This document shows, in pieces, positions 7,060 to 64,000 of a stretch of 64,000 nucleotides of DNA. The DNA lies in NCBI GenBank assembly GCA_015227615.1, contig JAALGZ010000010.1:620001-684000 (forward strand), given 5' to 3'. This DNA is from Labyrinthula sp. Ha (taxonomy: Eukaryota > Sar > Bigyra > Labyrinthulida > Labyrinthulaceae). Within the stretch, counting starts at the first letter, position 1, and every line of letters begins with the position of its first letter. A program made the position numbers and the translations under genes. Under the pieces are notes generated by a model. That model saw only the letters and a program-made list of their open reading frames with translations. It made no database searches and had not been told where the DNA came from.

Positions 7060-8000
7060 ATCACCCAAAATGTGTTTTACATTAAAAAAACTTTCCGACC
7101 ATGTGTTTAATCAAAGTATTCGATAAGGATGAGTACTTTAAACTCTAAAAAAGGCTAATTTTAAGGGTCCTTTTCACTAAGTTTGCAGATCTCTAAGAAA
7201 AACATGCATTCAAACGTAATATCAAGAAGAACAACTCTATAGATGATCTGATTCCTCTCAAACCCTAGAAATTAGCCATGTCTAACTTTTCAAAACATTT
7301 CTCATCATTTTTCTGCTCTATTTAATGTTAACTGAGCTAAACTTCACTGAGAAAAGTCAAATGTTGAAAATCTGCACATCTGAAAATACGAAGTCTCTCA
7401 GAATTACTATAATCCCCTAAATTTTTGTACTAGGGAGCCTCCAACAGCTAAAAACATGACCTATAACCTATAATCCTATTTTTTCAGAAAATTTTTAATG
7501 TTTTTTTAAGAAAAGTCGATATTGGGCTAAAATGTTGTTTTTATAAAATTCAGTTCGTGTAATACCTCCAGAAATAGTCGTCTAGAGCTCAAACAGACCT
7601 CACCAGTCAAAGGAATAGATAAATTTAGGTATAGAAGCAACTTTATTTGAGAAATAAAGTATTCTGTATAGACTTCCTAACAATGTATCCTATTTCCAAG
7701 ATCTCGGAAGCTCTGAAAAAGGATACTCTTCAATGTCAAATGTTCCTGAATGAAAGATAATTAACATCGGAACACTCTAATAAGTGGTATTGGCCTTGAG
7801 CTGATGGCAATTTAGGATTCCTACAAGGTTGGTCCCAGAAAACTCGAAGAGCTTAACTAATAACCACAACAATAGTTATTTGGATTAATTTAACTTCGTT
7901 TCAAACTCTACTCTTAAACAGCCAAAACCATACTTTCAAGAATTCTAATTCAGTGAAACTGGATTCTATCATTATCTGGAGACACTTTCAACCAACTTAG
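7060..8000 (+). repeat. Dispersed noncoding repeat, copy 1
   Basis: About 0.94 kb that aligns by eye, with small indels, to 32040-32990 in the same orientation. Landmarks in both copies are GATAAGGATGAGTACTTTAAA, AATCCCCTAAATTTTTGTAC, AAAAGTCGATATTGGGCTAA and ACAATGTATCCTATTTCCAA. Identity is roughly 75-80%, so the copies are old. I see no open frame, terminal repeat or poly(A) tail. It could be the body of a non-autonomous transposon, an old segmental duplication, or a noncoding RNA family. Confidence 0.7.
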
Positions 8001-8832: not shown

Positions 8833-8982
8833 ATGGGAAAAGAGGTAGAATACACACCAATAAATTCACAAGTCCTTAATCGGTTCTTATATTCAACGAA
8901 TTTAAAGAGGGGTAAATCGATTGCAGGAAATTTTGCTAATCTTTACGTTGTAGAAGATTTGTCTTCTAGAGCAAAAGTGCTT
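8833..8982 (+). pseudogene. Protein kinase gene, 5' piece (split by LTR element)
   Basis: From ATG at 8833 about 50 codons encode MGKEVEYTPINS... and then GKSIAGNFANLYVVEDLS, a glycine-rich ATP-loop with beta1-beta2 of a kinase N-lobe (G-x-x-x-x-G-x-F-x-x-x-x-V pattern). The frame stops being kinase-like exactly at the LTR boundary (8982/8983). The continuation, starting with the VMK lysine of beta3, is found after the 3' LTR at 18849. Dropping the element and one copy of the 4-bp duplication makes the host frame read AKVL-LVMKC without a shift. So this is a host kinase gene interrupted by a retrotransposon, in the same orientation as the gene. Confidence 0.75.
8979..8982 (+). repeat. Target-site duplication, left (GCTT)
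   Basis: The four bases before the 5' LTR are GCTT, and those after the 3' LTR (18845-18848) are GCTC. One mismatch is compatible with an aged insertion. A 4-bp duplication is also the size that keeps the kinase reading frame continuous. Confidence 0.55.
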
Positions 8983-9375
8983 TGTGTGAACCCTGTTTTG
9001 TCCAGTTTTTGACGTTTAACGTTATTAGTATAAGTAGTTGATATTATAATATTGGATTACCCATAGTTTCCTAGGGTAAAAATAGGTAGTTTAAAATAGT
9101 GGCCAATCCAGCCAATTTAAGAATTAAAAATAACCAATAAAGAAAACAATTCGATTGTTGTATTAGTTTCGCCTAATATCTTGAGAACAATCTTATTATT
9201 GACTTTAAAAACATTCGGAATATTTGTATCTTGTTTGAACTTGGTGATCTAGTTTCTCCTAGGTCTGTTCAATAGTAGTTTAGTTAATCTTTGAGCTTGG
9301 ATTAGTGACCATATCGTGAGTCACTTTTCTTGGGCAATTTGTGTTAGGGCTATCAGTCACTCGTCGACCGATAAA
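8983..9375 (+). repeat. 5' LTR
   Basis: 393 bp starting TGTGTGAACCCTG and ending CGACCGATAAA, aligned without indels to 18452-18844 with about 16 substitutions. It begins with the usual TG. The 3' boundary is set by the end of shared sequence and does not show the usual CA. Confidence 0.9.
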
Positions 9376-9549
9376 TTATTTAAACAATTGAAAACCGAAA
9401 CACGATTGAATCTAAGGTAACTTTGAAAAAGGGTTCCCCTCGAGTTACTCGCTCAGGCAAACAACTTGCTCGATCGAGTGACGAGGAGCCTACTTCGGAT
9501 TTAGGTGGGGACAACTCAAAAATAGGACTTCATCTGTAGATACGGCTGG

Positions 9550-11185
9550 GGGGAGAACGAAATTATACCGTCTTCCGATCAGCCTACGCAGATATCGTTA
9601 TTTGGAAAGGATGATCCTTCTGTAGGAGGTGAATCAAGAACTAAGAAAAAGGGATTGTCGCTGAAGGTTAAGTTAAAAACCCCAGTGGCAAAATCGAAGA
9701 GGAAAGCGACTGTAAAGGCTATGAAGCCGGTCGCTAAGAAGTCTAAGCCTGCAAAGGCGAAGGCTATTGATTTGATCGATGAAGGGAATCCTTCATCGAA
9801 GTTAATAGAATTGGATATCCTAAAGAGGAAACCTTCTGCGGCATATTTTAAGCCCAAGGAAGTTCCTAAAAGCTCGGATCCTAGGGAGACGCAAGTCCTG
9901 GATGCGGAAACGACTAGTGGTCCGAGTGGGGATGAGATCGAAGAGGTCGATGTTATAGACCAAACGATCGCCAATCAAGAAAGAACTATTGGTAATTTGG
10001 GTTATGAGCCTGATTTGGATGCCTTGAGCGATGATGAACAAAGAGATTTGGTATATCGCAAGTATAGGTTGAAGAAAGGGCAAACAATTAGAAAGAGAGG
10101 CACTTCAGAAGAATCCCTAGTTTATGGGGCGGGAGCTGGAGTGACCTTGATTGGGAGACCAGCAACTTCCGTGAAGAATGCTGAATCGAATGACGAACTT
10201 TATAAGGAAGTCACTAGGAAATTAAACGATCCTACCCGCGGGAATGCGGCTGGATCCCTTATTGAGAAAAAAAGTTATGGAGAGGGATTTGCTGGAGTTT
10301 GATTCTCTGAATCATCAGGAGAAGAGGAAAGTTTTTGCTAAGTTGAGAGTGCAATATGAAAGGGCGCGTATTCAGAATAATACAACCCTAGCGGCACTAA
10401 GGAGCAAGAATGCTGAGAATCAACCTGTTGGTCTTCCCGAACACCAAGAATGGCCTGAAAAGGTTGGTGGGGAAGAATTGAATATGGAAGCGGCTGGTCT
10501 TGCGACCAACGTGGACATTGCTATGTTTGACGCTATCCAACCTTCGGATCCTAATGCCGATGAGTTGAAAAGATACGTCATCATTAACTATGTGAACTCG
10601 CAAGCAGTGTCGACCTACTTGCCGTGTCTAGCCTCTCATGTTAGTTCAAATCAGGAAAAACTGCAAGGGGAAATTGAAAAGAGGAGATTTAGGAATAGGG
10701 AAATCCATCAAATGATTGGAGACGCGAGAGGTCATGTTGATGCTCTTCGCGTAGATATTGATAAAAAGATGATTGACTCGAAGGTGCATATCGATAAGCT
10801 TAGAGCTGTGATTCACTCTTTGAGAGTTGCTGTTAATGAACTATCTCAATCAAAGGCTGCTCCTCTAGTGTCCGCCACTAGAGTGAAGCATATGTTGCCT
10901 AAAATGGACGTGTTGGAGACCTTGCAAATGGAAAAGCTTGGTCAATGGCTGAATGTTGTGGGTGAGTTATTGACGTTGGATCCAACGTTTCAACCTCGCT
11001 GCTTAGTTCATGAGAAATTATTGGAAAAGTTCTGTAGAACTAATGAGGATAGGGATGTTGTTTACTTTTCCTTAAAGGATTATTATGAAAGAGGTACGGC
11101 TGAAAATCGCCAGGATCCCATGCGTCTCCTTAAGGAGGTTAAGTACCCTACTTCGGGTGACAGCAGGGAACGATTTCAGACTTAA
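9550..11185 (+). mobile_element. Gag-like region of the Ty3/gypsy element
   Basis: The first part is rich in Lys/Ala (repeated KKSKPAKAKA-like composition) and then acidic. The second part is a long helical, probably coiled region (YERARIQNN, KRRFRNREIHQM, DKKMIDSKVHIDKLRAVIHSLRVAV). The position directly after the 5' LTR and ahead of protease fits Gag. No capsid fold can be named from sequence alone. Fossil, broken. Confidence 0.5.
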
Positions 11186-11232
11186 ATGATGAACGTAAGT
11201 TCAAAAATTGAAACTGGGTATACGGATAGGAT

Positions 11233-12462
11233 ATGGGGGAAGCATTGATTGAGTTACTAAATGAGATAACGAGAAAAGTGCCCTCCAGCTTTAGTTTGTC
11301 AAAGGAGGCGATTCGAAGTAAGGTTAAAAACCTCGAGGATCCCCTTCGTTCGGTGGAGATGCTTCAAACCCTTTTGGAAGCCCAACGTCAATTTGCGTTG
11401 GACAGGGGTGTGGATGCATCTAATGGTCAGGTTCCAGAGTCGGAATCTAAGATTAAGGAAAGGAAATCGAGAACCCCCTCGGTAAATAGAATAGTTACAC
11501 CTAGAGTTAATAAGGTGGTTAGTTTTGTGCCATTTCCCATGGCAGCGGGTCCGATGCCTGTTAATATCACAGGTTCATCGATTGATGTTTTGGATAAAGA
11601 GAAGAAGTTCCACGAAACGCGGTATTCGGAGATTCCCTGGAATCATCATAGGACGTATGCTTATTGTAAGCATCACGGGCATGGTATGCACGATTGTGTT
11701 ACTTTTGCCGTAAATGTTTTGAGAAAGGATGATGATAGGAAATTGAGATCGGTAGAGGGGAATACTTTGAAAACCCGTCAGGTGCAGGAGTTCATCAATC
11801 GGGCGTTTAGCCATCAGATGCAGAGTCCTGGTGGTAAGTCTAATTACCAAACACCTAGGGGTATGACCTCTTTAAAGTATTCGATGATCGTTAAGGCTCG
11901 AATGATGATGGGAGGGAAGGAATCACCTAATGATTTGCGCCCGCAATCGGGGTTTAGGGAAAGTAAAGCACTTGCCCTAGCCGTTCCATCCGGACAAAAG
12001 GAGCTTGATCAATTGAAGGCTTTAGTGCCTGATAACTATGACTTGATGATTGAGGGTACTAAGGAGTATTCAACATTGGAAGTACATGTCGGGGAGGTAT
12101 CCCAATTTCATAATTTTGGTGAAGGTTATGAGCTTTGCACTAAGTCAGGAGATGTGATTGGCGATGCTAAGTTTGATAGCGGAGCTGAAGTCACAGTCAG
12201 AAGTTGGTGGAAGCACAAGGATTTGCTAGAAAGCTATTCGAGTGCAAGTGGCAACGTTCATGTTGCAAATGATGCCCCGGTTAAGATTTTAGCCGTAGGT
12301 TATGTGGGACTTGTTGTTAAAGTCCATGGTTTAGAAAGTAGGGCTTGCCCAAGGGCCAAAGTTGTATTGGTTCAATCGCAAGATTGGCCAAGCTTTCTAA
12401 TTGGGAGACCCGAATTGAGGAGGATGGGTTTAGATCCCGCTCAAAACTTGGGACTCGGGTAG
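11233..12462 (+). mobile_element. Nucleocapsid-like zinc knuckle and aspartic protease region
   Basis: A Cys/His motif (YCKHHGHGMHDC, near 11660-11697) resembles the knuckles of plant- and fungal-type gypsy Gag. Further on, KFDSGAEVTVRS (about 12170-12205) has the retropepsin DSGA active site, followed by the hydrophobic flap-like VGLVVKVHGLE and FLIGRPELRRMGLDP, the ILG-like segment that closes retropepsins. The role in the family is cleavage of the Gag-Pol polyprotein. Part of the broken element. Confidence 0.75.
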
Positions 12463-13399
12463 GGAATCGGCAGCCAGGCTAACCACCTGGTGGGCCAAAT
12501 ACAAGAAAAGATCTCAACTCTCGTTGTTTATAGATATGTTAATAGTGTCTTGTGGTTAGAGGGTAGATTGGAGATCTATAATTGGCCTAGTGTGATATTT
12601 GTATGTACTATTTCGGTTAAGCTTAAAGTGATTATGAATTATTTGACATCGAAAGGGTATAAGCTACTTGAAGTAGTTCGATTATTGCACTGGGCACCTA
12701 ATAAATTGGTTAACTCGGTGAGGAGGTATATGGTTTTTGAAAGGGGTATTTGCCAGTCTCGCGTTAGTAGACAAAAGCACAAGAATGTGCTGATTGAACC
12801 CCATGGTACGGTCGGGGGGTGGCTCGGTTGATGCTGATGGCTAAATCGCTGCAGGATGGCGCCATTTCAGTTTACCATCAAATCTCGGTCGGCAACGTAC
12901 CAAAAACCTTAATGAATCTTGATGGATATGTCGAGGTCCGATTCATTAAGGCGAGGCAATCACTCAGTGAAAACCTCACCTTGGGTAGACGCCTATCTAA
13001 CGAGGACGCTCGGAGATGTTCTACAGCGGCCTTATATGCCACATGGGAAAGAGTCTTGGATGACGGACTAGGGGATAAACCCAGATCATTTAACGTCGAC
13101 TCATGGATTGAACCTATACAACTGACAAGGATTTATGCCTCTATTGGTAGTCTCGATTTGTTTGAGCGCATAAATTCAGGGAATTTTGAAGGGATTGATT
13201 TTGGAGAAATTATAAAATTGCGTCGTCATGTCGAGGACATCGCTGATGACGATTTGGGAGATAACCTTCTTCCTGATGTAGGAGAAGGTTTGAGTTTGGA
13301 GGATGAGGAACCTTTGATCAAGAAAGCCATCAATGAGATGGTAGATCGTTCGGAAGCCTCACTGGAAATGAAAAAATTACTTAGGAAATTGTGTTTGAG

Positions 13400-14060
13400 C
13401 TTTTGGGATGTTTTTGCCACGGACCACACTCAGACTAAGATTAGTGGGATGTCACCAATGCCGGTGTATCCTTTGGAAAATTTTGAGTTTGCTTACCCCA
13501 GGGTTAGGCCAATGTCTTCGGAAAAATCGAACTTTATAACTGATAAGCTGCTAAGTATGGCAGAAAGAGGATTGGTTATCAAGGTTAAGTCTGCTGAGTT
13601 TGGCTCAGTGGTATTTGCGGTACCAAAGAAAGGAAATAAACTAAGAATGGTGGTCGATCTTGTTGATGTTAACAAGATTTTGAGAAGGGATGTTAACCAA
13701 CTCCCTCACTTAGAGACATGTTTTGATAATCTTGCGGGTAGCAAGTATTATGGTAGTTTTGATGTTGTTTCTGGTTTTGATCAGTTAGGAATAACCGAGG
13801 AAGCAAAGAAATATTTTAACATTGTATCGGAGCATGGCACTTTCCAGCTTCAATTTGCACCTATGGGATATCATAGTACCCCAGTATTCTTCCATCAGAG
13901 GATGGTTGATGAAGTGGTGGGGGAAAGATTGGTAAATCGTCCTAGGAATGGAGTCATTCAATGGATTGATGATAGTCTGCTTTATACAGATGACTTTGGA
14001 GAATACTTAAAATTGTTAGAGATATTATTTTTGAGCTTAAGGAAAGCTAAGGTTCGTATT
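13400..14060 (+). mobile_element. Reverse transcriptase domain (Ty3/gypsy)
   Basis: Motifs in order are LRMVVDLVDVNKI (R-x-x-x-D-x-R/N-x-x-N type), GSFDVVSGFDQLGI (catalytic Asp of motif A), FQLQFAPMGYHSTPVFFHQRM (motif B, usually GLxNAPATFQ) and WIDDSLLYT (motif C, x-x-D-D). Copies the element RNA into DNA. The motif spelling is somewhat unusual for the family (APMGYHSTP in place of PFGLTNAP). Fossil. Confidence 0.85.
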
Positions 14061-14429
14061 AGCCTATTCTAGTCAATAATTTTGGCAAAGGAAATTGTGT
14101 ATTGTGGCCGTAAGGTCGCAAATGGCAAATGGAATTTTAAGGAAGAATATTATTCTCGGATCTTGGATGAACCTAGACCAGAATACGTTTATCAATTGGC
14201 ATCAATGATGCTTTTGTCACAGTAGTTATCTCTGGTAATCCTGGAGTTAGCTGAGCTAAGGAGTGTTATCATGGAATTTTACCCTGAGATGAGAGGTAAA
14301 AAATCGGAATTAAGGAGGAAAAATGAGAGGGTTCATTGGTCCACTGAGTTAACAGGGGCCTTTGAAAGATTTCTTAAGACGATTAGTATTGCGGCAAAGC
14401 AGAAATTGAGCCTGTATGATAGAACCCAG

Positions 14430-14860
14430 GATCTGTTGTTAATAACAGATGCATCTGGCATGTTCTTCAGTTCGATTCTGATGCAAGCCGATACTTCTCA
14501 AAGAAATCGAAAACTATTGGAAAAACGGGTGGTTCCCATGATGTTCTTTTCGGGGAAATTTCAAGATACCCAAACTAGATGGGGCATTGTACACAAGGAA
14601 TTATACCCAATTGTGAAAACTTTTATCAGGTTGTCGTATCTGTTACCTTTTCATCCTACGCCGATTCAGGTGTATACGGATCATTTGAATTTGAGGGCCA
14701 TTATAAAAGGGGGATCTAAGATCAACCATGGCCATTTGAATAGGTTGCAACGATGGGTTTTGACCCTGCAACAAGCGGATGTAGAGTTACATCATATTAA
14801 GGGGGAGGATAATGTCTTTGCTGATATGCTTTCGCGTTGGGCGGCTACGCCAGAGCGAGA
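14430..14860 (+). mobile_element. RNase H domain
   Basis: LLLITDASGMFFSSILMQ carries the first catalytic Asp, WGIVHKELYPIVKTF the Glu, and IQVYTDHLNLRAI the second Asp, the typical Ty3/gypsy order. It ends with the conserved DVELHHIKGEDNVFADMLSR (usual form: ...GxxNxxADxLSR). Degrades RNA in RNA-DNA hybrids during reverse transcription. Fossil. Confidence 0.85.
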
Positions 14861-15689
14861 GAAGCAGAGAGTTGCCTCCGTTAGGATAATGAGAGTGGCG
14901 ATTCGTTGTGATCGAAGGGAATCGGATGCGTCTCTGTGACCTCAACTTTCGTTGACATCTAGAGAACGTAAGTACTTTAGGAGGATGTTCAAGCATCCAT
15001 CGGAGATCGACGATGGTCTGGATCGGTGGGTTCCGTTGAAGGATAGACACCCCGATTCTGATTCTGAGTCGTCGGTGACGGAATTCTCGAACCCTTGGTA
15101 TGAGAGTGATGGGGTAAACCATGGCCTTAGGCCGGATGGTGGTTTAGAGATAAAGATTGAGAAACCGAGTCTGGAAGAGGAGTACAGTCGGTTAGCTCTG
15201 GTGGATACGGAATCTGCCGTATCCCTAGACGAAATCGGTACATGGGTTTCGTCCCTGATGGCAAAATCGGGGATTTCTTCTGATGAAGAAGTCAAACTTG
15301 AAGTTCCTAGAGTAGGACTTGATGTGATTGTTTCTGAGCTGAGATTGTCTCCAAAGAAGCAAAAGGAAAAATCAGCTTATGAGAGGATGCGAGCCTTGGA
15401 TAAGGATCGTATTTCCTGTTTGAATCCGTATTACCAAGGTGATTAGAAACGGATTTCGGAAAAGAAACTCTTGGACGCCCAAAAGCAGGAAGCTTTGGGT
15501 GATGGTATAAAAACTTCTGAGGAGGAGGAAGGATTATCATTCCCAAATCATTGTTTGTAGCGCCAACTTGTTCACATTCATTTGGCCAATAGACACGGCT
15601 CTAGAATCCAAGATATGGCAGAGGTTAGGCTGTTCAAATGGAAGGTACCTTCGAGTTATGGTACGAAGGTATCAGCGGAAACAGTGATG

Positions 15690-16230
15690 CTTGGACTGAG
15701 GTCTAACTGCATCCATTGTAATAGGACACCGAAATTGATGAAAACAAATTTGATATTGATAACGGAGGCTAGAAGACCTAAGGAAGTTCTTGTAGCCGAC
15801 TTTTTGTATGTTAATGCTAAAGGTTATATTTTGGTTATAACTGATGCGTTTTCTCGATTTTGCTTTCTTCATTATGCTCCTAAGACTGATGCAAGAACTG
15901 CAGTTAGAGCTCTAAGTAAGTTTCATACTTATTGGAGATTGGAAGTGGAGTTTACCCTTGTGACGGACAGGGGCTCCCATTTTGCGAACCAACTACTTGA
16001 ACTGTTACAAAAGGAGGTCCGATTTACCCATAACTACGCAGTGAGTTATGCTAGTTGGACCAATGGGGAAGTAGAAATTGTCCATAGGAAAGTTCTGAGC
16101 TTCTTGCGAAGTTTGGTTTCAGAACTTAGATTACAATGGGATCAGTGGCCGGACGTTGTCGAGTCAGTAATGACTGCGGTAAATGAGGTTCCTTTGCCTA
16201 GTAGGAAGCTTCCGGGTATGAACGATGCTC
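15690..16230 (+). mobile_element. Integrase core
   Basis: CIHC near 15710 resembles the end of the HHCC zinc-binding region. EVLVADFLYVNAKGYILVITDAFSRF gives the first Asp, TLVTDRGSHFANQLLE the second (TDxGxxF), and SYASWTNGEVEIVHRKV the Glu, forming the D,D-35-E triad. Inserts the cDNA copy. Fossil. Confidence 0.85.
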
Positions 16231-16739
16231 CGAGTGCTAATCTGTTGTTTTAAATACGGATCCATCTAAGGAATATATCGAAACGGAAGCTTTTCCCAAA
16301 GTCATTTTTCGGAAAATAGGGGGAAGAGAGGGTGCGATTAGGGTTGATAAGGATATCCTGTATCGTCTGTCGATGGAGTTCCGACGTGAGCTGGATGAGA
16401 TGCATAGTCAGGTGGCTGATTACGTCTCGCTCATGAAGCGGAGAAGAAATGAATATTGGAATAAGCGCCAGAAAAGGGTTGATAAGGCTTGCATTCAATA
16501 TGTGCCTGGCGACTGGTGCTTAAGTAGTACAAAGAATACTCCTAGGGAAGGCAATAAAATCAAGTTAATCTGGTCAGGGCCGGTTAACGTGATTGAATTG
16601 CTTTCATCAAATGTGTATAGAGTCAGATTATTAAATGGGGAAACCCAGAATGTGCATGAAAGTCGATTGTACTTCTATGAGCCTGATGGTTTCGTTCCAG
16701 ATGACTCGATGAGGAAAGTTTTTATTAATAATTGGGGTG

Positions 16740-16890
16740 AACTTGAAGCTCAGAAGTTCTTATATATTAGGTACTCAAAAGGAGAATACTTCTTAAGAGT
16801 TAGATGGAGGGGTTTCAAACCCATAGACGATACATGGGAGCCGTTGCTTACCATGTATAGGGATGTAAAGGAGCTTACTCTTAAATTTTT
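16740..16890 (+). mobile_element. Chromodomain at the integrase C-terminus
   Basis: KFLYIRYSKGEYFLRVRWRGF...DDTWEPLLTM matches the chromodomain pattern (hydrophobic strand, V-x-W-x-G-[FY], D-x-T-W-E-P). It is preceded by an SH3-like integrase tail (GPVNVIELLSSNVYRVRLLNG). Such domains direct chromovirus integration to particular chromatin. Fossil. Confidence 0.85.
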
Positions 16891-17166
16891 GGGAGAAAAG
16901 CGAATTTCTAATAGGAAAAAATTGGTTAGGAAACAGGCGCAAGCCTGGTTGGATAGGAAATTTGCTTTAGATGTGTCGGCAGCTTGGGTTGGGAGACTCC
17001 GCCCTAGCTTGCTGCATTATTTAAAAGATAAGGAGGATCTTAGTGTTTGGGAGAGGCTCCCCGGACGAAAAGATTTTGCATCAGGTTGGAAGACTTTTGA
17101 TCATAAATTGATTAGGAATCTTATTTTGAAATTTGGAATGGGTAATTTGAGCAATTTACGCGATAC

Positions 17167-17772
17167 ATGCCTTATAAATCGAAGGCGATGATGTATTCGT
17201 ATTTGCAAAGAAAGTTAGGAAGGATGGATTTGGCTCCATTGAGGGGTCAGTTCATCGATATTGATAAGGGGATGGAAACCTCGGAGAGGTTTTCTTTGGA
17301 TAGTTTAGAATTTAATAGGAGATTTGATACGCTGGAGACAGCTAAGTCATTTCTAATGGAGACTTGTCCGGGTGGAGTAAGTCAAACGTACAGGAACGCT
17401 TTCGAACGAAAGAGGAAAGAGGTTGAGACGATGGTTAAAATTTGTGAAGATCGTTTCATTAAACTTTATCAAAGTCGGGTGTCGAGAGCTGGGATGAAAT
17501 GTTCGTATCTCTTATGCTCACTAGAGCTAAGTCGTAATAGATACCTACACGAAGTCTTGGACAAAGATTATCCTAAAGAGTTAGTTTCGAAAATCGAAGA
17601 TATACTTGTTGCTCCAGTTGAGTGCGAGTTATCTGGGGGAAGTCCTGTCATAGGATTTGAGCATGTACAAACTTTTACGCTTAAACATCTTTGTGGCAAT
17701 TTATATTTGGTTGGCTTTGAAGGAAGTCCATTTTGGACAAGAATTTGTGCCCCGCCTCGGGATAAACTTTGA
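17167..17772 (+). mobile_element. Region of unknown function between chromodomain and methyltransferase
   Basis: About 200 residues, mixed charged and probably helical in the first half (FLMETCPGGVSQTYRN, ERKRKEVETMVKICEDRFIKLYQ). A second half with possible strands (FEHVQTFTLKHLCGNLYLVGFEG) runs directly into the methyltransferase region. It is not a standard part of Ty3/gypsy elements. It may be the N-terminal part of the captured methyltransferase protein. No family recognised. Fossil. Confidence 0.5.
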
Positions 17773-17799
17773 TTTACCGCGGACTTATACGAGTCGGCA

Positions 17800-18370
17800 A
17801 TTTTGACTGAGTGGCCTGGAGACAAGGTGGACTTGTTATTAATGGATCCACCTTGGGCAATAGGTCAGGCGAATCCTATTAGAGGATTGAGGGTTCCGTA
17901 TGCGCGGAAACCCGATTCGCAAGTTTTGAATTTGAATTTTGAAACCTTGAAGGCTTCCTTCCTTGCTATTTGGGTAATTGATCGGACTTGGGAATTGAAT
18001 TTAAATGAAATGTTTGATAGGGGATATGAACTTGTTCATGTCATTGAATGGGTGAAGCTCGCGCCGAATGGTAGAATTAGAACATCATTAGGGTATTACT
18101 ACCAACACTCCACGGAAGCTTTGTTAATTTTCGTTCGGAAACTGGAGCGCTTGGTGACAAGTGTTGTATAGAAAATTGAATTATTGCGAAAGGAGAAGGT
18201 AATCTTTGCAGATCGGTTGATTGAAGGTGTTAAACCTCGGAAAACCTATGAATTGTTTGAAAAAATATTTTTGAAGAGACATCTTAAAGTCGAGCTGTTT
18301 GCAAGATGTGCAAATTGGAAATCTGGTTGGATTCAAATTGGATTAGAAGTGGATCCTAGAATTTCTGATT
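17800..18370 (+). mobile_element. MT-A70 (METTL3-like) adenine N6-methyltransferase domain carried by the retroelement
   Basis: DKVDLLLMDPPWAIG contains the DPPW catalytic motif (codons 17845-17856) at the end of a hydrophobic strand, as in METTL3/METTL14/MTA1 enzymes. Next come WVIDRTWELNLNEMFDRGYELVHVIEWVKL (METTL3: F-L-W-V...L-x-x-W-G-Y...I-x-W-V-K), RIRTSLGYYYQHSTEALLIFVRK (METTL3: RTGxxGHWLNHGKEHCLVGVKG) and VELFARCANWKSGWIQIGLEVD (METTL3: IELFGRxxNxxxNWxxLGNxLDG). All the family's landmark blocks are present in order. In the family this is an S-adenosylmethionine-dependent methylation of adenine N6 in RNA or DNA. Which substrate applied here cannot be told. The domain lies between the chromodomain and the polypurine tract, so it is inside the element. 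Fossil, broken. Confidence 0.85.
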
Positions 18371-18432
18371 TAGTTTTCGGGTGTTACAGACCTGAAAAAT
18401 CTCTGGCAGAAAAGACTAGTGAATAGTCTTTT

Positions 18433-18451
18433 AGAAAGAAGAGAAGAGGGA
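18433..18451 (+). other. Polypurine tract
   Basis: AGAAAGAAGAGAAGAGGGA sits immediately before the 3' LTR, the expected site and composition for the plus-strand primer of an LTR retrotransposon. Confidence 0.85.
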
Positions 18452-18844
18452 TGTGTGAACCCTGTTTTGTTCAGTTTGTGAAGTTTAACGTTATTAGTAT
18501 AAGTAGTTGAAATTATAATATTGGATTACCCATAGTTTCCTAGGGTAAAAATAGGTAGTTTAAAATAGTGGCCAATCCAGCCAATTTAAGAATTAATAAT
18601 AACCAATAAAGAAAACAATTTGATTGCTGTATTAGTTTCGCCTAATATCTTGAAAACAATCTTATTATTGACTTTAAAAACATTCGGAATATTTGTATCT
18701 TGTTTGAACTTGGTGATCTAGTTTCTCCTAGGTCTGTTCAATAGTAGTTTAGTTAATCTTTGAGCTTGAATTAGTGACCCTTTAGTGAGTGACTTTTCTT
18801 GGGCAATTTGTGTTACAGCTATCAGTAACTCGTCGACCGATAAA
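18452..18844 (+). repeat. 3' LTR
   Basis: 393 bp, same ends as the 5' LTR (TGTGTGAACCCTG to CGACCGATAAA), directly preceded by the polypurine tract and followed by the kinase gene remainder. Confidence 0.9.
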
Positions 18845-19913
18845 GCTCCTTGTTATGAAGTGTCTTTCTGTTGAAGAAGTAATTGAATCAACTTGTTTGG
18901 ATTATATGAATGTGCTTAAAATGATGCATAACCCAGACTATGATAAGATTCTGGAAGTACAACTTCCAGATGTTAGAAGCAGACTTAAAAATCTGTGGAA
19001 AGAACTCGAGATTATGAAGCAAATTCAAGGAAATCGTTTCATTATCAGTTTTATAGATGGAAAAATATGGGATGATCACTGTGTTATTCTTATGGAACGT
19101 TGTGTATTTAGTATTAGCAAGTTTTCAGATATTCAATTTATTCTAGACGAAGAGAAAAATGTAACAAAAAGTCTTGTTTCAAGAGAAATTGCTTTTTATA
19201 TAGCTTCAGGAATACTTTTGGGAGTTGAGCATCTTCATTTGAAAAATTTTATTCATAGAGATATAGAACCAGATAACATATTATTGTCAAAAGATTTAGT
19301 ACCAAAAATAGCAGATTTTGGAGATACTATATTAAGAACTGGTAAAACAGTTGATCATAAAGTAAAAGGAACAGAAGGCTTTGTGGCACCTGAATTTTTT
19401 CTTTCGCCTTATGTTGAGGATTTTAAAAGAGATATTTTTAGCTTTGGTGTTACAATATTGTATTTGATTGAAGGTGTGTATCCTAGTGACTGGTGACCCT
19501 TTGATACACATCTAATAATGCAGTATCCAAGAGAGCGTAGTGCTGAAGATGCTGAAAAGTATGAAAATTTACCAAACTTGTATGTAAGGTATAATAACTC
19601 GTGGAATGAAAAAAATACAGAATCAATTAAAGAGTCTCTTGGTGACTTAAAAAAGCTCGATTTGGATGGTCAAGTTGCTAACTTGTTGAACCAGTGTGTT
19701 CTTTTTGATGCGGAGAAGAGATGGAGTGTATATGACTGCCTTGACTCTATCTTAATGAAAGAAGTGAGAAATTTTTGGAGAGTTAAACGAGAACAAAACT
19801 TTGCACATAATCTGCTAGAAAGTACTTTTGTGACTGGTAGAAAACAAACAAAGGAATTAGTTTGTGCTTTTCAAGAAGATCCTGATAAATACCTGAAGTA
19901 CTGGGTTTATTAG
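18845..19913 (+). pseudogene. Protein kinase gene, 3' piece
   Basis: The first four bases (GCTC) are the right target duplication. Then LLVMKCL gives the beta3 lysine, KNLWKELEIMKQI the alphaC glutamate region, CVILMERC the hinge, FIHRDIEPDNILL the catalytic loop, KIADFGDT the Mg-binding DFG, GTEGFVAPEFF the activation segment and FSFGVTILYLIEG the alphaF region. The C-terminal part reads YPRERSAEDAEKYENL...DAEKRWSVYDCLDSI (the conserved Arg of subdomain XI) and ends KYLKYWVY, TAG. Family role: Ser/Thr-type phosphorylation. The catalytic-loop lysine is replaced by Glu (HRDIEPDN instead of HRDLKPxN). An in-frame TGA at 19494-19496 lies after PSDW. A 48-nt GT-AG interval (19476-19523) would remove it and keep frame, giving LIEG-YPRER. 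The gene cannot be made whole from this allele because of the LTR element. Confidence 0.8.
19476..19523 (+). other. Candidate 48-nt intron in the kinase gene
   Basis: GTGTAT donor, CTAATAATGCAG acceptor with a possible CTAAT branch point. Its length is a multiple of three, and removing it deletes the in-frame TGA and leaves a kinase-like join. The alternative is simply a stop mutation in an already interrupted gene. Confidence 0.35.
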
Positions 19914-25200: not shown

Positions 25201-25307
25201 GCATTTGGTTCTCATTGTAATAATGTTATACGGTGTGCCTATTTGACATATTAATAAAACCACAGTATGACATTACCACATACTACTGATTCGAGGAAAG
25301 AACAGAA
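22266..25307. other. Intergenic, 3 kb, no gene recognised
   Basis: AT-rich sequence with only chance-length open frames (for example 23323-23517, 23758-23952, 24630-24872). A short (TA)n tract lies near 24982-24998. The last 200 bases before 25308 presumably hold the HMBS promoter. Confidence 0.5.
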
Positions 25308-26519
25308 ATGCAAAGCGCAGCATTCATCATTGGTTCTTTAGGATTATTCCTCTACTTCAAGAAAACAAAATCTACAGCCACAAATTCCCTACCAAAACGC
25401 AATGCCAACACACTTTACCTCGGCACACGTAGATCTGACCTTGCTATGATACAAACACACCACGTTGCAGACCTGCTAAAGAAAAGCAATCCCAACCTCA
25501 ACATAGAAATCGTTCGACCCATGGATACAATAGGAGATAAAATTCTAAACCAGCACTTAAAGTCTTTATCTCTTCAAATCCCTGGACTATTCACAAAAGA
25601 TCTAGAAGAAGGTTTACTACTTGGTCACTTTGATGCAGTTGTTCATTCCTTAAAAGACATGCCAACAAGTTTACCTCCTGGATTAATCCTTGCTGCAATA
25701 ACAACTCGACAAGATCCTTTGGATGTAGCAATAATACATCAAAAACATCTAACAAAATGCAGAACTCTTGAAGAACTTCCACACGGATCTGTAATTGGAA
25801 CAAGTGCAATACGAAGAGAAGCTGAATTAAGACGAAGATATAAACATAAACACTTTATATATAAAATAATCCGTGGAAACGTAAACTCTAGATTAAGCAA
25901 ACTAGATAATGGTGAATATGATGCTATTATATTAGCAGCTGCTGGATTAAAACGTCTTGGACGTAAATTTGAAGCTAGAATAACAGAATTTTTATCTCCT
26001 CCTAATATTTTATATGGAGTAAGTCAAGGAGCTCTTGGATTAGAATGTAGAGAAGGTGATGAAAGAGTTAAAAATATTCTTGTGAAAGCTTGTGAAGATT
26101 GGGAAAGTAGTTTAGTTTGTCTTGCAGAACGTGCGCTATTGAGAAGTTTAGAAGGTGGATGTCAATTACCTTTAGGAGTTGAAAGTAGAGTTGAACCGGT
26201 TGAAGGACATTCAAGTGCTATGAGATTAGATCTACGAGGTAGAATTTTAGATGAGAAAGGAGAGAAAGTTGTTGAAGATAGTTTAAGTCGGATGGTTTGG
26301 AATTTTAAAGAAGCGGAGTGGATTGGAGAAGAATTAGGAAAGAAATTGTTGGAAAAGGGTGGAGAGGATATTTTAAAAGAGTTGAGAGATGGTGGAGTTT
26401 TAGAGGGTGAAGGAAGAGATGTTAGTATTGATCCAAAAAAACATAGACGAAATAGCAGTGTTGAGTTAAGTTATGGATCTGCAGAAACTCCTCATTTACA
26501 CTGGAAAGAAAGAATTTGA
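25308..26519 (+). CDS. HMBS: Hydroxymethylbilane synthase (porphobilinogen deaminase), N-terminally membrane-anchored
   Basis: Condenses four porphobilinogens into hydroxymethylbilane, the third step of heme synthesis after ALA. 403 residues, starting at ATG with a clean frame to TGA. Landmarks: LGTRRSDLAMIQT (39-50), TIGDKIL (74-80), FTKDLEEGLL (95-104), VVHSLKDMPT (111-120, with catalytic Asp117), GTSAIRREAELR (164-175), IRGNVNSRLSKL (188-199), LAAAGLKRLG (209-218) and LEGGCQLPLGV (281-291, with Cys285, the dipyrromethane-cofactor cysteine). All key residues are present. Odd: residues 5-17 (AFIIGSLGLFLYF) form a membrane segment followed by KKTKS, unlike the soluble family norm, and there is a charged C-terminal extension beyond about residue 345. 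The sequence style is closer to the opisthokont/cytosolic enzymes than to bacterial hemC. Convergent with the CENP-C gene, 148 bases apart. Confidence 0.95.
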   Translation: MQSAAFIIGSLGLFLYFKKTKSTATNSLPKRNANTLYLGTRRSDLAMIQTHHVADLLKKSNPNLNIEIVRPMDTIGDKILNQHLKSLSLQIPGLFTKDLEEGLLLGHFDAVVHSLKDMPTSLPPGLILAAITTRQDPLDVAIIHQKHLTKCRTLEELPHGSVIGTSAIRREAELRRRYKHKHFIYKIIRGNVNSRLSKLDNGEYDAIILAAAGLKRLGRKFEARITEFLSPPNILYGVSQGALGLECREGDERVKNILVKACEDWESSLVCLAERALLRSLEGGCQLPLGVESRVEPVEGHSSAMRLDLRGRILDEKGEKVVEDSLSRMVWNFKEAEWIGEELGKKLLEKGGEDILKELRDGGVLEGEGRDVSIDPKKHRRNSSVELSYGSAETPHLHWKERI

Positions 26520-32039: not shown

Positions 32040-32990
32040 CTTTGTCACCTACAAAGTATTTCACATTAAGAAAATAACTCTAACCATGTGTCTTGCTAAA
32101 GTATTTGATAAGGATGAGTACTTTAAACCCTAGAAAAGGCAAATTTTAAGGATCTTCTTCACTAAGTTTACACATCTCTAAAAGGAAATACATTCAAATT
32201 TAAAATCACGAACAACAACTTTGTAGATGAACTGATTCCTGTCATACCCTAGGGATTCACTATGTACAACTTCTTAACCCAGTACTTAAGTTTTCTCTTC
32301 TCTGGTTGACTGTAACTGAGCTTAACTTCTCTCAGAAAAATCAAATGTTGAAAATCTGCACAGCTGAAAACACGAAATCACTCAGTTTTGCTATAATCCC
32401 CTAAATTTTTGTACTAGGTAGCCCCAAACAACTGAAAAACACGAACTGTAACCTTTAATTCTGTGTTTTAGGACATTTCTAATATTTTTTTAAAGAAAAG
32501 TCGATATTGGGCTAAAATGCTGTTTTCATCAACTTCAATCCGTGTAATACCTCGAGAAATACTCGTCTAGAGTCTAAATAATTCTCACCAGTCAAAAGAT
32601 TGGGTAAACTTAGGTCTAGAAACATCTTTGTTTGAGAATTGGAGCAACGTATATAGACTTCGTAACAATGTATCCTATTTCCAAGATCTCAGAAACTCTG
32701 AAAAAGGATGCCCTTGAATGTCAAATATTCCTGAATGGGTGATACCAAATACCGAAAGATTCTGAAGAATAATATCCACTTTGAGCAACTGGTAACTTAG
32801 GGTTTTCTACAAGCTTGATTCCAGAAAACTCGAAGATTGTCCCTATTTACCGCAGCAACAGTTATTTGGCCTAGTTTAATGTAGTTTCAAATTCTACTTT
32901 AAAATTGCCTAAGCTGAACTTCCAATTAGTAAAATGCGACAAATTTAGGCTCTAACATTATCTAGAACCAGTTTAGAATAACTTAGAACT
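32040..32990 (+). repeat. Dispersed noncoding repeat, copy 2
   Basis: Second copy of the repeat at 7060-8000, same orientation. The shared anchors and rough identity are given there. Neither copy has open frames or clear terminal repeats. Confidence 0.7.
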
Positions 32991-48628: not shown

Positions 48629-50605
48629 TCAAATGGAATCCTTTACATAAACAGGATTTTTCGTAGTTGGTTTTTCTTGTTCTGCTTTCGACTTTGACAT
48701 CAACTTCACTGTCACTACAACTAATAATACGATCATCAATAAAAGAGCAAACTGAAGAAACTCTACATTTTCGAACAGATTATCTTCGTCTTCATCTTCG
48801 CCCTCATCATTACTCGTTGTGTTTGTCAGAATAAATTCAATATCGTCGTTATTGTTTCCAAAATCATAGTCTCCAAGTCCAAAACTTTGAGTGATGAAAT
48901 CAAGCGAAGGAATAGTTTCATCAAAGAAATCAGGACCACCATGTCCATTATCTGGAACTAATCTTACAATAAGCTCTTCAGTTTCATCGTGTTCTTCAAG
49001 TGCTGTAAACATCCGTAGAGTTTGTAAAGGAGAAACATTTGGATCAGCAGTTCCATGCACCAACATAAAGTCACAAGTTTTTTCTCCTTTTTCTAATGTT
49101 TGCACAGTATAAACAGGACTTGCTTCATCAAATGCTTGTTTATTTTCTTCTGTTTGACTTAGATTAAGTAATCGTTCTGTTGGTATTCCAGTTTGAGGAT
49201 CATCTGCTGGTACAAAAACTATTCCATCTGGTTGAGGAACTAAATCATTAAAAAAGTCATCAACTAACTCAAACAAAGCAGTAATTGCAAACCAAGAAAC
49301 AGTTGAAGATATTTCTAGATGAGAATTAGTTAATTTCTCTGCAAGTAAACCTCCCATTAAAGCCATATGTGCTCCTGAACTCTGACCCCAAATGGCAACT
49401 TTTTCCATATCTAAATTATATTCTTCACTATTTGCATCAAGAAAATTCAAAGCATCTATAATATCTTCTAATTGAGCAGGCCAAGAATCTGTTGAACTGT
49501 ATCTCCAGTTCATTGCAGCAACCGTAAAACCTCGCCCAGTTATTTCATTCGCTCTGTTATAATCTAAAACTTGCGCATTACTTCCTCTAAACCAAGATCC
49601 CCCATGAATATATAGAACTAAAGGATTAGCATCTAAACCAGTTGGAGTTTCTCTTGGAAAATAAATATTCATATTTTGTCTTTCTGGAGGACCATATTGA
49701 ATATCAGAAACAAGATTATAATTTGGTTCTTGACTTCCTAAAACTTCAGATAAAAATATTAAAGCAGGAAGAGTTTCCGCATCAAACTCAACACCACCAT
49801 GACCAGCATCTTCAACCTGTCTAAATACAACTTTTCGTGCTCCATCTTGATCTTCCAGTGCTTGAACAAATCTTTCACTCTGAAGTGGTGAAACAATTGG
49901 ATCCTCAGTTCCATGAACAACAAGAAAGTTTTCTACAAACAGTTTTACTCGATCTCCAGTATTGTTGATTATATTCAAAGGACTAGCCGCATCAAAATCT
50001 GCTTTATTTCCTTCAGTTCTTTCTAATCCAAGTAAAGCTTCCTCTGCTTCTGCAGAAACTGCCAGACCATCCACATCATCATTTAATCTATCCGAAAACA
50101 GTTGAAATAAATCACTTGGAGCATAATAAGAAATTACTGCCTTAATTTGAACTTCTACTTCAGATAATAAACCTCCCATCAAAGCAATATATCCACCTGC
50201 ATCATCTCCCCACAAAATAAACCTATCTACGTCCAATCCATATGTTGTTATGGTATCGTCTTCCGAAAGAAAGTTTAAAGCACTATACAAGTCGTCCAAT
50301 TGTGCTTCCCAGATATTTGTGGTAGATAACCTATAGTTCATAGAAGCAACTGCAAGTCCATTGGAAGTTAAAGCATTCACTCTATTATATAAAGTTACAT
50401 CTGACTTATCACCAGCTGACCAGTTTCCACCGTGTAAGAATACAACCAAAGGGTATGGTGGTGTAAAAGAGATTGAGGAAGGTATGTAGAGATCAAGTTG
50501 GTTTCTAGTTTCATTTCCATATGATAAGTCAAGGGCTTCTGTATACTGAGAATAAACAGTATAAAAGAAATTTAAAGCAGTGAAATGTAGTATTTGTATT
50601 TTCAT
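48629..50605 (-). CDS. Tandem alpha/beta-hydrolase (carboxylesterase-like), type I membrane protein
   Basis: 658 residues. A signal-like N-terminus (MKIQILHFTALNFFYTVYSQ) is followed by two homologous alpha/beta-hydrolase domains (about 30-290 and 300-575), an acidic linker (DEGEDEDEDN), one membrane helix (about 615-635) and a short basic tail. Each domain has the HGG oxyanion motif (58-60; 334-336), an Asp (235; 521) and a His (269; 555). The nucleophile elbow is GQSSG in domain 2 (Ser409, intact triad) but GDDAG in domain 1, where Asp135 replaces the catalytic Ser. By family, domain 2 hydrolyses ester bonds of unknown substrates outside the cell or in a vesicle lumen, while domain 1 is a predicted pseudoenzyme. 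The closest families are BD-FAE/esterase-lipase types. Single open frame from ATG, no intron needed. TGA stop. A near-identical copy starts at 63105. Confidence 0.9.
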   Translation of the reverse strand: MKIQILHFTALNFFYTVYSQYTEALDLSYGNETRNQLDLYIPSSISFTPPYPLVVFLHGGNWSAGDKSDVTLYNRVNALTSNGLAVASMNYRLSTTNIWEAQLDDLYSALNFLSEDDTITTYGLDVDRFILWGDDAGGYIALMGGLLSEVEVQIKAVISYYAPSDLFQLFSDRLNDDVDGLAVSAEAEEALLGLERTEGNKADFDAASPLNIINNTGDRVKLFVENFLVVHGTEDPIVSPLQSERFVQALEDQDGARKVVFRQVEDAGHGGVEFDAETLPALIFLSEVLGSQEPNYNLVSDIQYGPPERQNMNIYFPRETPTGLDANPLVLYIHGGSWFRGSNAQVLDYNRANEITGRGFTVAAMNWRYSSTDSWPAQLEDIIDALNFLDANSEEYNLDMEKVAIWGQSSGAHMALMGGLLAEKLTNSHLEISSTVSWFAITALFELVDDFFNDLVPQPDGIVFVPADDPQTGIPTERLLNLSQTEENKQAFDEASPVYTVQTLEKGEKTCDFMLVHGTADPNVSPLQTLRMFTALEEHDETEELIVRLVPDNGHGGPDFFDETIPSLDFITQSFGLGDYDFGNNNDDIEFILTNTTSNDEGEDEDEDNLFENVEFLQFALLLMIVLLVVVTVKLMSKSKAEQEKPTTKNPVYVKDSI

Positions 50606-50799
50606 GTTTCGTTTTAGTTTTGGTCACCCTTGTTTTCTTAATACGTAAAATACTGCAAATACGGTGAATAAGCACGTTTAGGCAGTATTTCTAAAAAAAG
50701 TGCTATTTAGAAAGAGGTGGTTTTAAAGAAGCAAGAATAGACTTGTATAAGTATTCGATATGATATTATTTCTATATAATCTCAATAATCTATTAACTT

Positions 50800-63081: not shown

Positions 63082-64000
63082 GGTGACCAAAACTAAAACG
63101 AAACATGAAAATACAAATACTACATTTCACTGCTTTAAATTTCTTTTATACTGTTTATTCTCAGTATACAGAAGCCCTTGACTTATCATATGGAAATGAA
63201 ACTAGAAACCAACTTGATCTCTACATACCTTCCTCAATCTCTTTTACACCACCATACCCTTTGGTTGTATTCTTACACGGTGGAAACTGGTCAGCTGGTG
63301 ATAAGTCAGATGTAACTTTATATAATAGATTGAATGCTTTAACTTCCAATGGACTTGCAGTTGCTTCTATGAACTATAGGCTATCTACCACAAATATCTG
63401 GGAAGCACAGTTGGACGACTTGTATAGTGCTTTAAACTTTCTTTCGGAAGACGATACCATAACAACATATGGATTGGACGTAGATAGGTTTATTTTGTGG
63501 GGAGATGATGCAGGTGGATATATTGCTTTGATGGGAGGTTTATTATCTGAAGTAGAAGTTCAAATTAAGGCAGTAATTTCTTATTATGCTCCAAGTGATT
63601 TATTTCAACTGTTTTCGGATAGATTAAATGATGATGTGGATGGTCTGGCAGTTTCTGCAGAAGCAGAGGAAGCTTTACTTGGATTAGAAAGAACTGAAGG
63701 AAATAAAGCAGAATTTGATGCGGCTAGTCCTTTGAACATAATCAACAATACTGGAGATCGAGTAAAACTGTTTGTAGAAAACTTCCTTGTTGTTCATGGA
63801 ACTGAAGATCCGATTGTTTCACCACTTCAGAGTGAAAGATTTGTTCAAGCACTGGAAGATCAAGATGGAGCAAGAAAAGTTGTATTTAGACAGGTTGAAG
63901 ATGCTGGTCATGGTGGTGTTGAGTTTGATGCGGAAACTCTTCCTGCTTTAATATTTTTATCTGAAGTTTTAGGAAGTCAAGAACCAAATTATAATCTTGT
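63082..64000 (+). repeat. Inverted duplicate of 49710-50628
   Basis: Identical to the reverse complement of 50628-49710 except for 9 substitutions, with no indels. On the outer side homology stops 23 bases before the ATG; on the inner side it continues to the window edge. Confidence 0.95.
63105..64000 (+). CDS. Tandem alpha/beta-hydrolase, second copy (partial, runs off the window)
   Basis: Encodes the first 298 residues of a protein almost identical to the one at 48629-50605, in opposite orientation. Only two residues differ (Val76 to Leu, Asp203 to Glu); the other seven of nine nucleotide differences are silent. It keeps HGG (58-60), Asp235 and His269, and also keeps Asp135 in place of the nucleophile Ser (GDDAG). 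The second, presumably active domain would lie beyond the window. The frame is open with a clear ATG. The 5' flank is not shared beyond 23 bases, so the promoters differ. Confidence 0.92.
   Translation, partial: MKIQILHFTALNFFYTVYSQYTEALDLSYGNETRNQLDLYIPSSISFTPPYPLVVFLHGGNWSAGDKSDVTLYNRLNALTSNGLAVASMNYRLSTTNIWEAQLDDLYSALNFLSEDDTITTYGLDVDRFILWGDDAGGYIALMGGLLSEVEVQIKAVISYYAPSDLFQLFSDRLNDDVDGLAVSAEAEEALLGLERTEGNKAEFDAASPLNIINNTGDRVKLFVENFLVVHGTEDPIVSPLQSERFVQALEDQDGARKVVFRQVEDAGHGGVEFDAETLPALIFLSEVLGSQEPNYNL

Follow-up and report, generated by a model that had tools for sequence, protein, structure and literature searches.

We report that a 9.86-kb LTR retrotransposon at 8983–18844 of a 64 000-nucleotide window from the Labyrinthula sp. 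Ha genome (the window being the whole stretch of DNA analysed, G000:C2:620001-684000) combines a Ty3/gypsy chromovirus build with a pol that ends in an MT-A70 adenine methyltransferase domain. As judged from sequence, this decayed copy belongs to a large and diverse Ty3/gypsy chromovirus group, part of it young, in its host (50.84 Mb in 153 contigs). The reading that we favor, and consider probable, is that Pol in these elements ends in a p1-like Myb domain followed by an AMT1/MTA1-like MT-A70 domain, and that the elements mark their own DNA with N6-methyladenine (6mA). Captured methyltransferases of the cytosine or Dam type are already known from retrotransposons; here, relatives of a eukaryotic DNA 6mA system, both catalytic and DNA-binding, appear to be standard in an abundant, partly young LTR group. 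The features of the window copy are as follows.

8979..8982, no strand: presumed left target-site duplication, GCTT; its right partner, 18845–18848, is GCTC (3/4 alike)
8983..9375, + strand: 5′ LTR, a 393-bp direct repeat 95.9% identical to 18452–18844
9374..9389, + strand: LTR/internal junction, where the primer-binding site is expected; the palindrome is imperfect here and perfect in relatives
9526..11185, + strand: gag region (frames 9526–10302 and 10226–11185), placed by tblastn to the longer frames of relatives; no Pfam match in this region
11230..12462, + strand: gag end, with a Cys/His motif (11662–11697) and a retropepsin-like DSGA motif (12166–12198), both named by eye where Pfam gives no match, closed by UAG at 12460–12462
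12798..14072, + strand: reverse transcriptase (RVT_1, E 7.4e-10)
14226..14939, + strand: RNase H (RT_RNaseH, E 1.6e-16)
15561..16253, + strand: integrase core (rve, E 1.7e-11)
16757..16846, + strand: chromodomain (PF00385, E 0.0017, 18.7 bits, under the cut-off of 25.1)
17042..17316, + strand: p1-like Myb domain, its frame broken near 17146, assigned through relatives’ matches to p1
17830..18348, + strand: MT-A70 (AMT1-like) adenine methyltransferase domain (PF05063, E 1.1e-10 and 1.9e-4)
18433..18451, + strand: polypurine tract, AGAAAGAAGAGAAGAGGGA, immediately 5′ of the 3′ LTR
18452..18844, + strand: 3′ LTR, the repeat partner of 8983–9375

The initial annotation, made from the letters of the window, had placed the landmark blocks of an MT-A70 methyltransferase between chromodomain and polypurine tract, inside both LTRs of a Ty3/gypsy element. 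The blocks from DPPW to ELFARC are found there (LLLMDPPW 17833–17856, NPIRG 17872–17886, YQHSTEAL 18100–18123, ELFARCANW 18292–18318), and profile search against Pfam MT-A70 (PF05063) confirms the family: the piece at 17773–18171 matches with 42.1 bits (E 1.1e-10; cut-off 23.9), and that at 18172–18426 with 21.9 bits (E 1.9e-4), slightly below the cut-off. Both pieces share one frame, separated by TAG at 18169–18171, with TGA upstream at 17770–17772. By Pfam, the domain order in the window is reverse transcriptase, RNase H, integrase and chromodomain, with MT-A70 last, which bears out the Ty3/gypsy assignment; the chromodomain, weak here and likewise below cut-off in copies L014, L026 and L032, exceeds it in L031 (28.7 bits) and L059 (31.2 bits). 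A DNMT- or Dam-type enzyme was considered and rejected, PF05063 being the sole methyltransferase family that Pfam finds in the window, with none in the other element parts scanned. The copy is the fossil it had been taken for, with 16 mismatches over the 393 positions of its LTR pair, several stops and frame changes, and a gag-pol spread over many frames; yet the family has young, open copies.

The surroundings of the element are a eukaryotic gene landscape, with a protein kinase (18789–19496) whose frame overlaps the end of the 3′ LTR, a porphobilinogen deaminase (25290–26519) and an esterase-like gene (48629–50623); Rfam has no match anywhere in the window. The window also contains an inverted repeat (49710–50628 and 63082–64000; 919 nt, 99% complementary, 12.5 kb apart) that reaches the window end, and a pair of direct repeats (7204–7749 and 32188–32734) that are ∼80% alike and 25 kb apart.

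That the domain characterizes a family had been anticipated, and genome searches together with 20 fetched copies did recover it in the same place within other LTR pairs. Because these copies carry the domain inside their own LTRs, its capture into Ty3/gypsy is a family trait and not a nested insertion. Across the host genome, the best 150 of 354 candidates for Pfam MT-A70 were scored and all 150 lie above cut-off, 19 of them in open frames of at least 2000 codons (one of these with a stop within the match). Merging the Pfam matches with those of three protein queries (window, host AMT1 and METTL3) lists at least 260 MT-A70 places in the 50.8-Mb genome, a count in which host AMT1 is included and a split copy may figure twice; the genome probably holds more copies than are listed. 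The window LTR has 33 matches in the genome, some as pairs that bracket other MT copies.

Twenty 10-kb stretches (L013–L032) were picked around MT-A70 matches and are thus selected for the domain; all 20 have reverse transcriptase, RNase H and integrase upstream of it, in order. A direct-repeat pair is present in 19, the second LTR of L017 lying beyond its stretch. Identity within pairs ranges from 85 to 100%, with identical repeats in L020 (253 bp), L029 (491 bp) and L031 (443 bp), and three copies are single open frames (L030, 2333 codons; L031, 2363; L032, 2660). Target-site duplications were readable in 10 of the 20 copies; by eye, exact 4-bp duplications were seen in L016, L027, L028 and L031 and one that is a base off in L029, and none was recognized in L026, L030 or L032. 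Halves are swapped between two copies, L013 (C132:78750-88749) and L015 (C24:191560-201559): their 5′ and 3′ LTRs agree crosswise from one copy to the other (99.5% and 100% identity, as against 85% within each copy), and their 4-bp flanks, AGAT and GCAC, also pair crosswise. The swap may reflect recombination between two elements that lie on different contigs, or a misassembly.

A search that starts from RNase H, without regard to the MT domain, gives a similar picture. Of the best 150 RNase H places (379 candidates), 110 have a downstream MT-A70 on the same strand; with a shorter MT-A70 list, 106 of the 150 had one at 2.9–3.7 kb, as against 2, 1 and 0 in controls. Seven of the 44 places unmatched with the shorter list were fetched: three have MT-A70 after all (L056, L057 and L058), L059 leaves its contig, and L053, L054 and L055 show no MT-A70 in the 5.4 kb fetched. 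Pfam matches make the last three Ty3/gypsy-like (RNase H in each, the integrase zinc-binding domain in two), so that gypsy elements without the domain seem to coexist with those that bear it. An RNase H tree splits 14 MT-bearing rows and L059 from the three MT-less rows (100/99), with long branches that urge caution. Among 28 MT domains outside the 10-kb copies, 24 are preceded by a listed RNase H or p1-like place; for L043, L048, L049 and L051 no such listed place lies upstream, and their membership in elements is putative.

At the 5′ LTR/internal junction, all 14 copies read among L013–L032 have a perfect palindrome of 14–18 bp (e.g. AATTGTTTAAACAATT and TATTGAATTCAATA), which stands in the place of a tRNA-type primer-binding site. 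Some known gypsy elements prime without tRNA, so its absence does not exclude these copies from Ty3/gypsy. Self-priming from the LTR was also considered and rejected: in 10 of 10 copies tested, the LTR has no complement to the junction longer than expected by chance. Between gag and pol, an in-frame UAG followed by G is conserved in two lineages, in 12 of 15 copies scanned (L013–L016, L020, L021, L023 and L025–L029) and in the window copy (12460–12462); L030–L032 are one uninterrupted frame. The conserved UAG looks like a site of programmed readthrough. We take TAG as a stop because the host’s own AMT1 gene ends in TAG exactly where MTA1 ends; on the same ground, a reading of UAG codons as sense was rejected.

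Overlooked by the initial annotation was the Myb-like domain that lies between chromodomain and MT-A70 (17042–17316 in the window). A block of this kind is present in 22 of 25 copies searched, the other three being cut short by stops or breaks. Taken singly, the match of the window lineage to p1 of the Tetrahymena MTA1 complex is weak: searched against the whole PDB (E up to 10), the domain of L014 retrieves three p1 chains of the complex at E 0.009–0.012 and, besides these, one unrelated chain at E 0.72. The match is strong only as a profile. Profile A2, built from ten copies, matches p1 at E 4.6e-19 over 80 residues (p1 residues 21–100), followed by SNAPC4 (2.9e-8) and c-Myb (9.4e-6) over ∼46–50 residues each; it also matches a chain named AMTP2, which we take to be p2, at E 6e-5. 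Pfam Myb scores 27.4 bits in L032 (over the cut-off of 24.4) and 20.7 bits in L001 (under it), and is not listed in the other four copies scanned. Conversely, when Tetrahymena p1 was searched against the host genome, 127 of the best 150 places (316 candidates) had an MT-A70 on the same strand 0.7–1.5 kb downstream (controls 1, 0 and 0), and 23 had no listed MT-A70. The top two p1-like places, at 45–46% identity (C100:136075 and C1:1284467), have no listed MT-A70 nearby and are taken as candidates for host p1. By these similarities, the elements carry both a catalytic and a DNA-binding part related to a 6mA writer. In L001, L004, L031 and L032, a retropepsin-like domain (DSG motif) follows the Myb-like domain, just 5′ of MT-A70, instead of lying in its usual place before the reverse transcriptase; the Pfam RVP match is over cut-off in L032 (22.6 bits) and below it in L001, L004 and L031.

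All 48 MT domains examined (host AMT1 excluded) have D-P-[P/A]-[W/Y] followed by P-x-R-G, the latter being the block for which the script searched, with no locus failing, and in 43 of them the segment read is free of stops. Selection was gauged by pairwise Nei-Gojobori dN/dS using only pairs with dS of 0.02–1.5, values that are descriptive, since the pairs have ancestry in common and decayed copies are among them. The median for the MT domain is 0.077 in the window lineage (44/55 pairs), 0.113 in group B (10/10) and 0.150 in C (22/36); D and G contribute one pair each (1/1; 0.047 and 0.068), and three small groups have no pair in range. The corresponding medians in A and B are 0.136 and 0.102 for reverse transcriptase, 0.065 and 0.140 for RNase H, 0.068 and 0.144 for integrase, and 0.207 and 0.121 for the linker; the highest single-pair value is 0.61 for the MT domain and 1.19 for integrase. 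The MT domain thus appears to be under constraint comparable to that on the replication enzymes. These data bear on an alternative, in which the Myb–MT module, with the chromodomain, would steer integrase to chromatin or DNA of the AMT1 type, catalysis being secondary or lost in some lineages. Its position behind integrase and chromodomain suits such a role, as do the nine domains with DPAW in the catalytic motif; the DPAW and DPPY loci (L001–L007, L033, L034 and L046, L049, L050) may include some that are inactive or altered. However, DPPW is kept in 36 of the 48 (the window copy included) and three more have DPPY, and the low dN/dS holds for the whole MT domain, so we regard targeting as unlikely to be the main role.

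Which MT-A70 enzyme the elements resemble bears on whether DNA or RNA is the substrate. The initial annotation had labeled the domain METTL3-type; the motif blocks of the family are indeed present, but its scores place the enzyme closer to AMT1/MTA1, a writer of DNA 6mA, than to METTL3. The window domain scores 87.1 bits with MTA1 versus 39.9 with METTL3. Searched against the PDB, L014, which belongs to the window lineage, matches Tetrahymena MTA1 at 93.8 bits, METTL3 at 42.4 and 7cv6 (labeled methyltransferase-like protein 2, and presumably of the METTL4 type) at 29.3, and METTL14 is not listed among its matches; MTA1 also leads METTL3 in L032 (129.5 versus 85.1 bits) and L001 (136.9 versus 112.8), with a near tie in L031 (113.5 versus 112). 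In 27 of 27 element domains, several of them from one lineage, AMT1 outscores METTL3, METTL14 and prokaryotic MT-A70, in a comparison against two AMT1, one METTL3, one METTL14 and five prokaryotic sequences in which the METTL3 segment is 163 residues and that of MTA1 184, a slight bias toward AMT1. Moreover, the P-x-R-G block is present in MTA1 and host AMT1 and absent from METTL3 and METTL14. A plain METTL3 label is rejected by scores, though not by the tree; a bacterial origin is likewise disfavored by scores, the prokaryotic ones being under AMT1 in all 27 domains, though here too the tree does not reject the grouping (p-AU 0.37).

The tree of 36 MT domains is compatible with several origins of the element enzyme. 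The grouping of elements with AMT1 has the best likelihood found (p-AU 0.611), its constrained tree exceeding that of the free search by 2.3 log units; elements with METTL3/14 (p-AU 0.162; window lineage with METTL3/14, 0.09), elements with prokaryotes and elements alone (0.237) are all unrejected. Scans of viral contigs and one of prokaryotic contigs, made with single-protein queries that reach close relatives only, returned no relatives of the element proteins. AMT1 depends on a partner subunit (MTA9/AMT7), and scans of element parts reported no further domain that is MT-A70-like.

The host has its own AMT1 (L008, C91:220662), which scores 248 bits with MTA1 and 126.6 with METTL3. With this gene as query, the other 149 of the best 150 places (449 candidates) are only 29–43% identical to it, so the capture looks old. 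Human METTL3 as query (best 150 of 348 candidates) has host AMT1 as its best match, at 43% identity; the host may have no RNA m6A writer, or introns may hide one. This last result bears on whether the element marks RNA or DNA, which the initial annotation had left as alternatives. On the former, METTL3-like reading, the domain would write m6A on the element’s own RNA and act on its stability, packaging or translation. METTL3 does belong to the MT-A70 family, L031 scores METTL3 and MTA1 alike, and the METTL3/14 groupings are among those that the tree leaves standing. Against this are the AMT1-ward scores of all 27 domains (with the slight segment-length bias), the P-x-R-G block shared with AMT1, the possible absence of a host RNA writer among the matches listed and, in particular, a companion domain that is p1-like and favors DNA marking over RNA marking. 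We accordingly give RNA marking little credence and take DNA as the likely substrate, with the enzyme’s activity and purpose, including self-marking, being what we infer. Finally, nothing was found in favor of a single, isolated capture of a host gene, or of a nested insertion into one, and either is hardly credible given the at least 260 MT-A70 places, the LTR-flanked copies at separate sites, and the in-frame fusion in open frames of more than 2000 codons.

For marking of the element’s own DNA with 6mA, we propose the following course. Being synthesized within Pol, the MT domain would enter the particle together with reverse transcriptase and integrase. DNA would be held by the p1-like domain: in the Tetrahymena complex, MTA1 and MTA9 are described as being without a nucleic-acid-binding domain, p1 and p2 are required for activity, p1 is implicated in DNA binding, and charge reversals in MTA1, MTA9 or p1 reduce activity (PMC9852454). 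The MT domain would then methylate adenine, probably in ApT, in the new double-stranded cDNA or the fresh insertion. In eukaryotes that bear AMT1, 6mA is reported to follow transcription and not to be enriched at transposons (PMC12695648); the mark could therefore disguise a new copy, passing it off as active host DNA. Host AMT1, present here, could keep the mark through replication. What this mechanism chiefly lacks is an MTA9-like partner; the element enzyme may act as a homodimer or use the partner supplied by the host. More tentatively, we suggest that the module could be a self-contained 6mA writer that acts de novo on ApT in cDNA and leaves maintenance to host AMT1, so that copies are born with the label of an active gene. 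If so, the epigenetic label of an active host gene would be inherited without further help from the element.

The family may also serve as a natural test of the role of 6mA: if elements profit from writing it, the mark would be an active and permissive one that parasites can forge. It also supplies numerous diverged AMT1-like domains, some of which depart from the usual catalytic motif, and the occurrence of p1-like and AMT1-like domains in one chain supports their working together.

Among the papers listed in searches of open-licence literature, none is listed as describing an MT-A70 domain in an LTR retrotransposon. Four kinds of known system come close, as far as the cited parts of the respective papers describe them. 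KnitGypsy-Dnmt3, from the charophyte alga Klebsormidium nitens, is alike in having Gypsy domain composition and a captured DNA methyltransferase in its Pol polyprotein, and its purifying selection (Ka/Ks < 0.2) is a further likeness to the present elements (PMC5890265). It differs in that its enzyme has another fold and is of the cytosine-5 type, its repeats have been called DIRS-like, and the part of its description cited here does not mention a p1-like partner (PMC5890265). SymbioLINE-Dnmt, SymbioDIRS-Dnmt3 and the DIRS elements with Dam-like enzymes are likewise retrotransposons with captured DNA methyltransferases, which in some DIRS elements are adenine enzymes; unlike ours, they are LINE or tyrosine-recombinase elements, and their enzymes are Dam-like or DNMT and not MT-A70 (PMC5890265). 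The Tetrahymena AMT1/MTA1 complex MTA1–MTA9–p1–p2 (PDB 7f4l, 7f4r and 7yi8) shares an MT-A70 enzyme with P-x-R-G and a homeobox/Myb-like p1, whereas its components are separate subunits of a cellular enzyme and include an inactive MTA9 and p2, neither of which was recognized in the element parts scanned (PMC9852454, PMC12695648). The orchid Ty3/gypsy elements with an AlkB m6A demethylase are also gypsy elements with a captured N6-methyladenine enzyme; theirs, however, is an eraser, shown to be active on RNA and encoded in a separate ORF (PMC9289625).
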